Part shown: in pieces, positions 46,595 to 50,157 of the stretch
How the letters are laid out: each line of letters begins with the position of its first letter
Numbering within the stretch: the first letter of the stretch is position 1
Origin: Zhongshania aquimaris
GTDB lineage: Bacteria; Pseudomonadota; Gammaproteobacteria; Pseudomonadales; Spongiibacteraceae
Reading direction: 5' to 3'
Length of the DNA stretch: 64,000 nucleotides
Assembly: GCF_019312595.1 (NCBI RefSeq)
Contig: NZ_JAHWDQ010000001.1
Coordinates: forward strand, 1,226,788-1,290,787
Program-made: the position numbers and the translations under genes
The notes under the pieces: model-generated
What the model saw: the letters and a program-made list of their open reading frames with translations, nothing else
What the model was told of the DNA's origin: nothing
Database searches by the model: none

Positions 46595-47686
46595 ATGGGT
46601 TTTAACTGCGGTATCGTCGGACTTCCAAACGTCGGCAAATCCACCCTCTTCAATGCCCTCACTAATGCAGGCATTGACGCGGCCAATTTCCCCTTCTGCA
46701 CCATCGAGCCCAACTCCGGCATCGTCATGGTGCCAGACCCGCGCTTGCACGCGCTGGCAGAAATCGTGAAACCTGAGCGTATCATGCCTGCAACCATGGA
46801 GTTTGTGGATATCGCAGGCCTCGTTGCTGGCGCCTCAAAAGGTGAAGGACTAGGTAATAAATTCCTCGCCAACATCCGTGAAACCGATGCCATCGCCCAC
46901 GTTGTGCGCTGCTTTGAAGACGACAACATCATTCACGTCGCCAACAAAATTGACCCCGCCGCCGATATCGAGATTATCAATACCGAGCTCGCGCTAGCCG
47001 ATATGGAAAGTATCGATAAGCAATTACAAAAAGTGGTTCGGGTAGCCAGAAGCGGCGACAAAGACGCCACCGTACTTAAAAACCTATACGAGAAGCTGCT
47101 CGCCCATCTAGACCAAGGCAAGCCCGTGCGCTCACTGAGTCTGGACGCCGACGAAATGGCCCGCACCCGCAGCCTGCACCTGCTCACCATAAAGCCGACC
47201 ATGTACATCGCCAACGTCAACGAAGAAGGCTTTGAAGACAACCCACACCTGGACGTGCTTCGCGCCATCGCCGCCGAAGACGGCGCCATCGTGGTTCCGA
47301 TTTGCAATAAACTCGAATCAGAAATTGCCGAACTAGACGACAGCGAAAAAGCCGAATTCCTCGCCGACCTAGGCATGGAAGAGCCCGGGCTAGATCGCGT
47401 GATTCGCGCCGGCTACCAATTACTCGGCCTGCAAACCTACTTTACCGCAGGCGTAAAAGAAGTTCGGGCTTGGACCATTCCCGTTGGCGCCACCGCCCCA
47501 CAATCTGCCGGCGTAATCCACACCGACTTCGAAAAAGGCTTCATCCGCGCCGAAGTGATTGCCTATAACGACTACATCCAATACAAAGGCGAACAAGGCA
47601 CAAAAGACGCTGGAAAATGGCGACTAGAAGGCAAAGACTACATCGTAAAAGACGGCGACGTCGTCCATTTCCGCTTCAATGTGTAA
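46595..47686 (+). CDS. ychF: Redox-regulated ATPase YchF (OLA1)
   Basis: Obg-related but ATP-preferring P-loop ATPase that interacts with ribosomes. 363 aa. G1 GLPNVGKS (9-16), NKID-type site, and a C-terminal TGS domain (about 280-363) ending FRFNV. pth-ychF order is widely conserved. Confidence 0.97.
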
Positions 47687-47703
47687 CGCGAACTGATCTG
47701 CGC

Positions 47704-47732
47704 TTGACAAGGTGCGCCGATCCTTGGAAAAT
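47704..47732 (+). promoter_or_regulatory. Predicted stringent-type promoter of tRNA-Met
   Basis: TTGACA (47704-47709), 17-bp spacer, GAAAAT (47727-47732), then a GC-rich discriminator GCGCGCC, as in stable-RNA promoters under stringent control. The start would be near 47740, about 20 nt upstream of the tRNA. This promoter would also transcribe the repeats that follow. Confidence 0.6.
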
Positions 47733-47759
47733 GCGCGCCTTCTCTCGTCAGAGAACAGT

Positions 47760-47836
47760 GGCAAGGTAGCTCAGTTGGTTAGAGCACAACACTCATAATG
47801 TTGGGGTCGGCGGTTCGAATCCGCCCCTTGCTACCA
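47760..47836 (+). tRNA. tRNA-Met (elongator, anticodon CAU)
   Basis: 77 nt with encoded CCA. Acceptor GGCAAGG / CCTTGCT (first pair G-T), discriminator A. The anticodon arm CAACA-CTCATAA-TGTTG gives CAT. The body closely resembles E. coli elongator tRNA-Met (TAGCTCAGTTGGTTAGAGCAC). Its last 15 nt (47822-47836) are the first 15 nt of the tandem repeat that follows. Confidence 0.95.
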
Positions 47837-48776
47837 TTATTCGAAAAAACCACTTAACCGTGGTTTTTTTTCGGCTGTTGGAAAGTACGCAGCACTCAAC
47901 GGGTGGATGAGAACCGCCGCGCGGTTCGATAAAATGCGACCAGCATTTTAGACGGCGATAGCCGCCCGAAGGGGCAGTAACAGGCCCCAGCCTGTTACTG
48001 ATCAATCCGCAGTACGCCCCTTGCTACCATTATTCGAAAAAACCACTTAACCGTGGTTTTTTTTCGGCTGTTGGAAAGTACGCAGCACTCAACGGGTGGA
48101 TGAGAACCGCCGCAGCGGTTCGATAAAATGCGACCAGCATTTTAGACGGCGATAGCCGCCCGAAGGGGCAGTAACAGGCCCCAGCCTGTTACTGATCAAT
48201 CCGCAGTACGCCGCTTGCTACCATTATTCGAAAAAACCACTTAACCGTGGTTTTTTCGGCTATTGGAAAGTACGCAGCACTCAACGGGTGGATGAGAACC
48301 GCCGCGCGGTTCGATAAAATGCGACCAGCATTTTAGACGGCGATAGCCGCCCGAAGGGGCAGTAACAGGCCCTAGCCTGTTACTGATCAATCCGCAGTAC
48401 GCCCCTTGCTACCATTATTCGAAAAAGCCACTTAACCGTGGTTTTTTCGGCTATTGGAAAGTACGCAGCACTCGACGGGTGGATGAGAACCGCCGCGCGG
48501 TTCGATAAAATGCGACCAGCATTTTAGACGGCGATAGCCGCCCGAAGGGGCAGTAACAGGCCCTAGCCTGTTACTGATCAATCCGCAGTACGCCCCTTGC
48601 TACCATTATTCGAAAAAGCCACTTAACCGTGGTTTTTTTTCGGCTGTCGGAAAGTACGCTGCACTAGACGGGTGGACAAGAACCCCCACACGGCTCCACA
48701 AAATGCGACCAGTATTTTAGACGGCAACCGCCGCCCGAAGGGGCAATAACAGGCCCTAGCCTGTTATTGATCAATC
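47822..48776 (+). repeat. Five tandem ~192-bp repeats starting inside tRNA-Met
   Basis: Units: 47822-48014, 48015-48208, 48209-48399, 48400-48590 and 48591-48776. Each begins with the last 15 nt of tRNA-Met (CGCCCCTTGCTACCA; one C-to-G change in unit 3). Then come a U-tract hairpin (H1), GAACCGC/GCGGTTC (H2), AAAATGC/GCATTTT (H3), CGGC/GCCG (H4) and an 11-bp stem CAGTAACAGGC/GCCTGTTACTG (H5). Units 1-4 are nearly identical; unit 5 is diverged, with H2 broken but H1, H3, H4 and H5 kept. No full tRNA, no convincing ORF, no transposase. The plan resembles rtT repeats behind E. coli tyrT. Confidence 0.9.
47844..47871 (+). terminator. Intrinsic terminator of tRNA-Met, repeated in every unit
   Basis: AAAAAACCAC, loop TTAACC, then GTGG followed by eight T: a 10-bp stem with a U-tract, 7 nt after the tRNA CCA. 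Equivalent hairpins recur at the same offset in the other four units; units 4 and 5 have GCCAC in the left arm, giving a G-U pair. Transcription that passes the first faces four more. Confidence 0.75.
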
Positions 48777-48915
48777 ACCATCTGCCCCCGAAAAATGCGA
48801 CTAACAGGCTATATACCTATCAACACACCAAACCTAAAATGACACATAGCTATTTATAAACAAAAAAGCCTTCCGAGTGACTACACTTCAGCGAAAGCCA
48901 ATACAGGAACAACAA

Positions 48916-50157
48916 ATGCCATCTACCGTCTTGCAACGCTTATATCAAACTCTCGGCCTGACAGGTAACCAAGCACCACGTGACCCGGCAAGCCCGCCGG
49001 AAAGAAACGCCCCATCACCGCTTCCTACTTTTGTCCACTATGTTCGCTCTCGCTTTCGACTGCTAAATCAGCCACCAAAGGCTGAAGACATAGCTATAGC
49101 GTTTACAAAACGCCTAAAAATCGGACTGCAGACCCTAGATGAGCAGTTATCCAGTTGCGACTTATTTACCTTACCGGCTGGGTCACAAGAATGGACGGAT
49201 ACGGGTATTAATCTAGCAGCGGGCGAATCGATAACCGTGATGGGGGATGGCGGCCTATATCTATCGCGAAGACTTGATGTTGTTATCGGCCCCAATTTTG
49301 GACTGTGGTATCGAATCGCCAATCAAGATAATTCAGGACATATCAATATACTGCCTTTGGGCGGCGCCGTTATTACTGCAAAACAAGGCGGCACATTACA
49401 ACTCATTGCTGCGGTGCCGGGTGAGTTCGGGGATGCGCAAGGCGGATTCGATCCGAACATTGCAAGCCTAAAGGTTAATGGGGAGTTTGCCGCAGCCGTG
49501 CTGCGCTGGAAGGGTGATACAGTGAAAGCATTAAGCGCGGCCGCGGCTACTGATGCGAATTTGTTTGGTCCCGTTCTAGCGCGCTTTAAAGAACGTATCC
49601 AACCACCGAAAGGCTGGCATTATTTATGGCGCTTAGGTGAAAGCGAAATATACCAAGATAAAGAAAATAGCTTGTGCTGTGCCACACATGCGAATGGCGG
49701 GATCTTGCAGTATCCAGTGAATATGGCACTAAACAGCGATTTAGTATTTAACTGGCAATGGTGTGTTGACGCTTTGCCTTCTAAATTAGCCGAACACATC
49801 CAACCCACGCATGACTACCTATCTATCGCAATAGAGTTCGACAACGGCCTTGATCTTACCTATATGTGGAGCAGCGACCTCGACGTAGATACTATTTTTC
49901 AATGTCCGCTACCGTGGTGGGATAAGCGCGAAACCCATTGGGTTGTGCGAAATGACCCTGCAGATCTGGGCCGCTGGTTAAACGAATCTCGCAATGTCCT
50001 CGCTGATTACCAACGCGCTATTGGCGGACCAATTCCGAACAAAGTCGTTGGCGTGTGGCTGATCGCGAATTCAGCTTTCCAACGAGGCGAAGGTCATTGT
50101 CGTTATCGCCAGATAAACCTGCGGAACGAACAAGACACAAAAATCATTTACGACTAA
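48916..50157 (+). CDS. DUF3047-like protein with N-terminal lectin-like domain
   Basis: 413 aa from ATG 48916 (AGGA 7 nt upstream; a GTG at 48877 is an alternative). Residues about 75-195 look like a PA-IL/LecA-type beta-sandwich (WTDTGINLAAGESITVMGDG). Residues about 230-405 resemble DUF3047 (LVFNWQWCVDALP, YLSIAIEFDNG, W..RNV..DYQRAIG, VVGVWLIAN). No signal peptide or membrane helix. It stands alone after the tRNA-Met repeats, with no operon partner. Both domain calls are by eye and need a profile search. Confidence 0.6.
   Translation: MPSTVLQRLYQTLGLTGNQAPRDPASPPERNAPSPLPTFVHYVRSRFRLLNQPPKAEDIAIAFTKRLKIGLQTLDEQLSSCDLFTLPAGSQEWTDTGINLAAGESITVMGDGGLYLSRRLDVVIGPNFGLWYRIANQDNSGHINILPLGGAVITAKQGGTLQLIAAVPGEFGDAQGGFDPNIASLKVNGEFAAAVLRWKGDTVKALSAAAATDANLFGPVLARFKERIQPPKGWHYLWRLGESEIYQDKENSLCCATHANGGILQYPVNMALNSDLVFNWQWCVDALPSKLAEHIQPTHDYLSIAIEFDNGLDLTYMWSSDLDVDTIFQCPLPWWDKRETHWVVRNDPADLGRWLNESRNVLADYQRAIGGPIPNKVVGVWLIANSAFQRGEGHCRYRQINLRNEQDTKIIYD

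Follow-up and report, generated by a model that had tools for sequence, protein, structure and literature searches.

The tRNA-Met(CAT) gene of Zhongshania aquimaris is followed by five tandem units that each begin with the 15-nt 3' end of the gene, and this array is confirmed here as a genuine feature of the window (the whole stretch of DNA that was analysed, 64,000 nucleotides). The array is a newly described variant that has the plan of the RtT repeats and lies outside RtT by score. We read it tentatively, at somewhat under an even chance, as an RtT-like element made of tandem degenerate copies of tRNA-Met, in which the T-loop would be filled by a hairpin module, here called M. Related units across the Proteobacteria may be defunct tRNA copies occupied by such a module.

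The intact parent gene lies on the + strand at 47760..47836 (ARAGORN; Rfam RF00005, 72.5 bits), between ychF upstream (46595-47686; YchF-GTPase_C in Pfam) and, beyond the array, an ORF starting at 48877. The region 47822-48776 is the sole array that TRF lists in the 64-kb window, with a period of 191, 5.0 copies and 96% matches. Its units occupy 47822..48014 (U1, 193 bp), 48015..48208 (U2, 194 bp), 48209..48399 (U3, 191 bp), 48400..48590 (U4, 191 bp) and 48591..48776 (U5, 186 bp), all on the + strand. The opening 15 nt of U1 are the genuine 3' end of tRNA-Met, and U5 has no tail copy downstream. The 15-nt tail is exact in four of the five units, the single change being in U3, which reads CGCCGC instead of CGCCCC. 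Pairwise identity is 96.4-99.5% among U1-U4 (99.5% between U1 and U2), and U5 is the most diverged unit, with 84.5-86.0% identity to the others. The sequence-only reading had described five units headed by the tail of tRNA-Met, four of them almost identical, and both statements are borne out, U1-U4 being at least 96% identical. Because the units carry private changes, a one-copy assembly artefact is unlikely. No ORF on the + strand of the array reaches 40 aa; the longest ORF overlapping the array is one of 70 aa on the - strand, and an integrase gene is absent from the array. Three - strand ORFs of 49-70 aa at 47793-48581 are repeated across the units and are probably chance frames of the repeat.

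The order within a unit is the 15-nt tail with CCA, a terminator-like hairpin, a spacer, hairpin hp1, module M, ATCCGC and the next tail. The terminator-like hairpin of U1 (AAAAAACCAC/GTGGTTTTTT; 47837..47875, + strand) recurs in every unit and appears by eye as an A6CCAC/GTGGT6 hairpin. The terminator previously ascribed to each unit stands as regards this hairpin, seen by eye, but not as regards the terminator scan of 47650-48950, in which no terminator was reported. The hp1 of U1 (GA-GAACCGC..GCGGTTC-GA; 47909..47929, + strand) was delineated from DNA and RNA folds and alignment, and its right arm resembles the T-arm 5' half. It is followed on the + strand by M (47930..48004; model match, folds and covariation) and by the T-arm 3' half ATCCGC (48005..48010), with AGTA and the next tail behind it in the sequence. 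A model of M alone without the T-arm (R2) places M at 48124..48198 in U2, 48315..48389 in U3, 48506..48580 in U4 and 48699..48773 in U5, again on the + strand. M is about 75 nt long, ends with the letters GATCA and occupies the T-loop position (TTCGA^M^ATCC). In the RNA fold, M of U1 consists of hp2 (47930-47950), hp3 (47953-47964), hp4 (47965-47974) and hp5 (47975-48000). In the DNA fold, hp2 and hp3 are retained, whereas the 3' arm of hp4 pairs with the tail instead. The DNA fold of one unit body has an energy of -34.5 kcal/mol versus -16.5 (sd 2.7) for shuffles (z -6.7), and its RNA fold has a z of -5.1 against shuffles. Pairing of the upstream strand with the copied tail into an outer helix amounts, by eye, to no more than GTGGAT/ATCCGC in the window, and the Met units have a weak closing helix.

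The comparison with E. coli rtT made by the sequence-only reading proves apt, the plan being common to both. The rtT/rttR units at tyrT-tyrV are post-tRNA tandem units 178 bp apart, with a chain of hairpins that includes CCCGAAGGG and a copied tail with CCA. As in RF00391 RtT, the window units lie directly 3' of a tRNA gene, each ends in its own tRNA 3' end, and the hp1 scaffold GAGAA..GGTTCGA and the right edge at the T-loop are present. In contrast, hp2 and hp3 differ from those of rtT, and E. coli has tpr whereas the array lacks + strand ORFs of that size class (40 aa or more). The proposal that the array is an independent case on a different tRNA is not supported: rtT and the window share the GAGAA..GGTTCGA hp1, the CCCGAAGGG hairpin and the T-loop right edge, and the plan stands behind 19 tRNA/anticodon kinds. 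To our knowledge, there is no agreed origin of the E. coli rtT repeats.

Membership of the unit in RF00391 by score was rejected. The Rfam RtT model (45-bit gathering) gave no match in the window, none in 47700-48900 even at E<=10 and none in the Z. aquimaris genome, and gave one sub-threshold match (27.8 bits) among 20 related loci. In an E. coli stretch of 25.6 kb, a covariance model from 15 unit bodies (R1) put the three E. coli units on top with 17.2, 16.9 and 12.9 bits, the next match having 1.8 bits; these scores are weak (E 0.005-0.055). At other RtT loci R1 reached at most 12.5 bits, level with off-target matches, and R2 gave no match at E<=0.001 on eight RtT loci of the order. The sequence models tie the window to RtT weakly, and common descent of the array and RtT, judged from the plan, seems likely. 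RtT-model matches over the cut-off occur in at least 6 of 95 Pseudomonadales genomes at Lys, Ser and Tyr tRNAs, with two sub-threshold matches behind Tyr and Arg tRNAs; by eye, most of them have a copied tail together with hp1 and a hairpin resembling CCCGAAGGG. That RtT lies beside other tRNAs is already known in print, since a passage in PMC4986893 reports members adjoining Asn- and Lys-tRNA genes in Actinobacillus. A tandem GA motif is described for RtT RNA in the excerpt of PMC7657543. Among the matches listed from the open literature, titles and abstract openings mention no M, T-loop insertion or family-wide account of rtT.

The unit is widespread and closely bound to tRNA genes. R1 and R2 were built on hand-picked rows (15, then 37) and their matches lean toward that form; the genome tallies are lower bounds because stricter filters applied whenever more than 40 genomes were searched. 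With the Z. aquimaris genome counted in each tally, R1 matches occur in at least 33 of 57 genomes of relatives, in 15 of 38 genera, and R2 matches in at least 46 of the 274 genomes sampled from the class and at least 18 of the 249 sampled from the phylum, 13 of the latter 18 lying outside the class. Z. aquimaris itself has 11 R1 matches. Its 13 R2 matches at E<=0.03 all lie at tRNA-derived loci (five at Met, five at Ser-gct and one each at Ser-gga, Arg-ccg and a tRNA-Leu 3' half), and the fourteenth (E 0.57) has no tRNA. An ordinary dispersed repeat, which the sequence-only reading had named as fatal to a tRNA-derived origin, is ruled out for this genome by the 13 of 13 matches at tRNA-derived loci. 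No match to the unit was found in plasmid and phage collections.

A same-strand tRNA gene lies upstream within the locus for 80 of 103 R1 matches in the fetched loci (of 107, with four low-scoring opposite-strand matches omitted), and a tRNA lies within 900 bp for 45 of 66 R2 matches (of 68, with the two weakest omitted). At least six of the 66 have no tRNA part (L283, L292, L293, L295, L304 and L314), and L308 and both matches in L313 are doubtful. A pattern scan of named genomes yielded 100 stretches, 80 of which provided taxa and counts: Porticoccaceae, Woeseiaceae, Halieaceae, Chromatiales, Marinobacter, Simiduia, Pectobacterium, others and some alphaproteobacterial MAGs. In these 80 loci, a same-strand tRNA was within 1 kb for 65 of 93 pattern matches, and 54 of these were 58-95 bp upstream. 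Regular-expression matching across all loci recovered 122 units preceded by a tRNA at a distance below 300 bp; 121 of them, behind 19 tRNA/anticodon kinds, follow the common plan and the other (L028) is a chance match. In one genome (G025), five of seven R1 matches have no tRNA nearby and are enclosed in their own inverted repeats. These M-like bodies (L094, L129, L131, L134 and L144) have inverted repeats like GGTATGCCTC/GAGGCATACC and are perhaps a related dispersed element. Five Zhongshania genomes (L039, L044, L046, L047 and L220) share, by eye, a GGCTCTACAACATTAACGGGGGA-like DNA end in or beside hairpin bodies, probably that of an insertion sequence.

Within the genus, tRNA-Met was found in all 17 other Zhongshania genomes. 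It is mostly followed by one body or a remnant, with two bodies in G005 and G006, five in Z. aquimaris and none in G001, where R1 has no match at E<=0.01. The number of units differs among related species. A second tail with up to three mismatches is present after tRNA-Met in six of 18 genus genomes, two of the 18 stretches ending within 0.8 kb, and this count makes the proposed role as decoy 3' ends for tRNA-processing enzymes weak. Four draft assemblies (L013, L018, L026 and L027) end within 0.8 kb of tRNA-Met, as if longer arrays had resisted assembly.

The copied tail was compared with the neighbouring tRNA in the 122 harvested units. The T-stem 3' part agrees at 3.16 of 4 positions (top of 2000 shuffles, 2.25) and the following eight nt at 5.24 of 8 (top of 2000 shuffles, 3.54). 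When shuffling was restricted to isoacceptors (37 units), the observed value was 11.65 versus 11.19 for the top shuffle, and none of 2000 shuffles reached it. Because the tail matches its own tRNA above all shuffles, the right edge of the unit is a real tRNA copy. The T-arm 5' half agrees with its own tRNA at 2.99 of 5 positions (shuffled mean 2.62, top 2.83) and, when each distinct tRNA tail is counted once, at 2.93 versus a top shuffle of 3.02. Since the permutation gives only this slight match, an exact tRNA copy was dropped for the T-arm 5' half, and the left edge is mostly a generic GGTTCGA. Pairing of the upstream strand with the copied tail scores 6.22 in 66 intact-tail units versus 5.80 for the top of 300 shuffles, and 5.92 in all 120 units versus a top shuffle of 5.52, as expected of a leftover acceptor stem.

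A tail copied exactly next to a near-generic T-arm 5' half also speaks for integration scars, the main rival explanation, which is a serious one that we consider rather unlikely. On this view, a small integrative element would have inserted at the T-loop of the tRNA and supplied a new tail, with the old one displaced downstream, and each unit would be its right end (attR). The conserved end of the element would be hp1-GGTTCGA-M, and units in tandem would have accreted without cargo. The array shares with tRNA-targeted integrative elements and their attR scars the direct repeat of the tRNA 3' end, and differs from them in lacking an integrase gene and in having a hairpin module between the copies. 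Same-strand units flanking cargo in some genomes add to the case. In L353 (2208-14047), units 11.7 kb apart surround, by eye, a transporter/acyl-CoA gene block; in L054, units 2.4 kb apart enclose a resolvase-domain ORF (PF00239; 9437-9784); and in G009, units are separated by 1.7 kb and a direct repeat some 60 bp long is present. In L311 (1016-6206), about 4 kb between units encodes HigB-toxin, HTH, MazE-type antitoxin and leucine-rich-repeat proteins, and in L313 (853-6376), two equal-scoring M copies 5.4 kb apart surround CHAT-domain and DUF900 proteins; both loci are without a clear tRNA part. A scar origin is also favoured by tRNA 3' halves that run, by eye, from the anticodon loop onward at L064 and L353, where the first unit adjoins a tRNA-Arg 3' half. 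L064 belongs to the Z. aquimaris genome (G000:C6:544732), where a tRNA-Leu 3' half, read by eye from the anticodon loop, precedes a unit and looks like a displaced end left by an island. Against such scars, no tyrosine-integrase-like ORF was noticed in the five between-unit stretches (ORFs above 80-150 aa, by eye; Pfam was run on ten ORFs, nine of them from these stretches). Moreover, whole tRNA copies carry M in their T-loop, a place where an element end is unexpected, and M also occurs alone in tandem.

At some loci the T-loop of an entire tRNA body contains M, which was removed in silico. ARAGORN then recovered a tRNA at five of 22 candidate sites (L167, L194, L201, L203 and L210), compared with none of the 22 with M in place and one of 88 same-length shifted deletions. 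The 22 sites lie in 14 of the 17 loci given; the remaining 17 sites gave no tRNA, some being downstream units or regex chance. By eye, M is also found after GA in the D-loop (L150, L281) and the anticodon loop (L160). In the Zhongshania loci read, there was no whole tRNA copy with M. Behind tRNA-Ser(gct) in the Z. aquimaris genome (G000:C9:110875-111339), five 93-nt tandem copies of M alone lie inside one unit, and there are therefore two levels of tandem growth.

The helices of M are conserved by compensatory change. Over 37 M sequences, both-sided changes occur at 17 of 19 pairs, paired cells amount to 91.8% versus 73.9% when shuffled and at most 48.6% in slid controls, and one-sided changes are absent from the 296 cells of the first helix. 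Hairpins are commonly set apart by GA, as judged by eye. The compensatory change over diverse sequences argues against a neutral by-product, namely a functionless array produced by unequal exchange from an old tRNA scar, with palindromes that self-correct by template switching. Presence at many tRNAs would also be hard to reach by neutrality alone. The homogenised U1-U4 beside a diverged U5, and the null R1 result in G001, fit such a by-product, which we nevertheless regard as very improbable.

G-U pairs are scarce in M, making up 2.7% of predicted pairs in 121 M sequences versus 9.8% in shuffled M, 8.6% in 86 tRNAs and 5.2% in the 50 nt that follow a tRNA; hp2 has 7 in 1026. This scarcity favours a DNA-level constraint, although strong RNA stems might give the same. 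The rarity of wobble pairs bears on a functional RNA, in which RtT-like small RNAs would be made with the tRNA and processed, with an acceptor and T-stem minihelix closing a multi-hairpin loop, and would act as a regulator or protein sponge. The annotation of E. coli rttR as a small RNA supports this idea, as does a passage in PMC4986893, which calls RtT an RNA liberated from the tRNA transcript. The excess of upstream-strand pairing with the copied tail over shuffles points the same way, as do a promoter-like match (9/12) repeated in U1-U4, the stretch holding 5 such matches versus 1.0 expected, and GGA in 34 of 121 hp2 loops, in some as AGGA. It is opposed by the terminator-like hairpin between the tRNA and each unit body, by the rare wobble pairs and by the hp2 loop of the window, which is GACCA without GGA. 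A functional RNA is a serious rival that seems unlikely. The AGGA loops resemble CsrA/RsmA sites; a CsrA/RsmA sponge was not adopted, as GGA is found in 34 of 121 hp2 loops but is absent from that of the window. In L279, L310 and L311, hp2 and hp5 have CAGGA or TGGAT loops similar to those bound by CsrA/RsmA, and further loci with R2 matches share a CAGG start.

For the degenerate-copy reading that we tentatively prefer, the following course can be envisaged. A tandem duplication of the tRNA gene with its terminator, or a displaced 3' half, would have provided a spare copy. M would then have been placed at TTCGA^ATCC of the spare T-loop, a state seen in other genomes and presumed here. Loss of the D and anticodon arms from the spare copy would have left only a short strand, paired with the T-arm 5' half as hp1, and in many cases the tail would have decayed. 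Finally, units or M alone, whose tandem arrangement is observed, would have multiplied by unequal exchange, U1-U4 of the window being recent and U5 old. The near-generic T-arm 5' half counts against this course and would be expected if GGTTCGA belonged to the element; the 17 candidate sites without a recovered tRNA and the lack of a whole tRNA copy with M in the Zhongshania loci read also count against it. M is kept as near-perfect palindromes, and we therefore read it as probably acting chiefly as folded DNA, a selfish or recombination-prone module that would live in spare tRNA copies. Nothing that would move M was identified. Mobilisation in trans by a Y1 transposase (IS200/IS605) was rejected: Y1 genes are not commoner in carriers (15 of 33 genomes) than in non-carriers (14 of 24), and the Z. 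aquimaris genome has none at E<=1e-10.

M has partial counterparts among other palindromic repeats. Rickettsia palindromic elements are short palindromic modules found mainly in protein genes; M is similar as a short palindromic in-gene module and differs in its location in tRNA loops. REP/BIME elements likewise form chains of palindromes, but they are dispersed, unlike the tRNA-bound copies of M in Z. aquimaris. BIME-borne candidate attenuators similar to rtT are mentioned in a passage of PMC2965389.

A broader and improbable proposal would make RtT one branch of Proteobacteria-wide tRNA parasites. In that case, a GA-linked hairpin module would enter tRNA loops at GA^A, mostly in the T-loop and sometimes in the D- or anticodon loop, would occupy spare copies, and would convert them into tandem recombination sites that gather cargo and function in a folded single-stranded DNA form, with some likeness to integron attC sites.

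Setting rtT beside the widespread units of the same plan and the whole tRNAs interrupted by M gives a testable account of its origin. It also draws attention to a repeat class that the Rfam RtT model mostly misses, at sites where genomic islands enter, and the account predicts that copy number would change fast at such tRNA sites.
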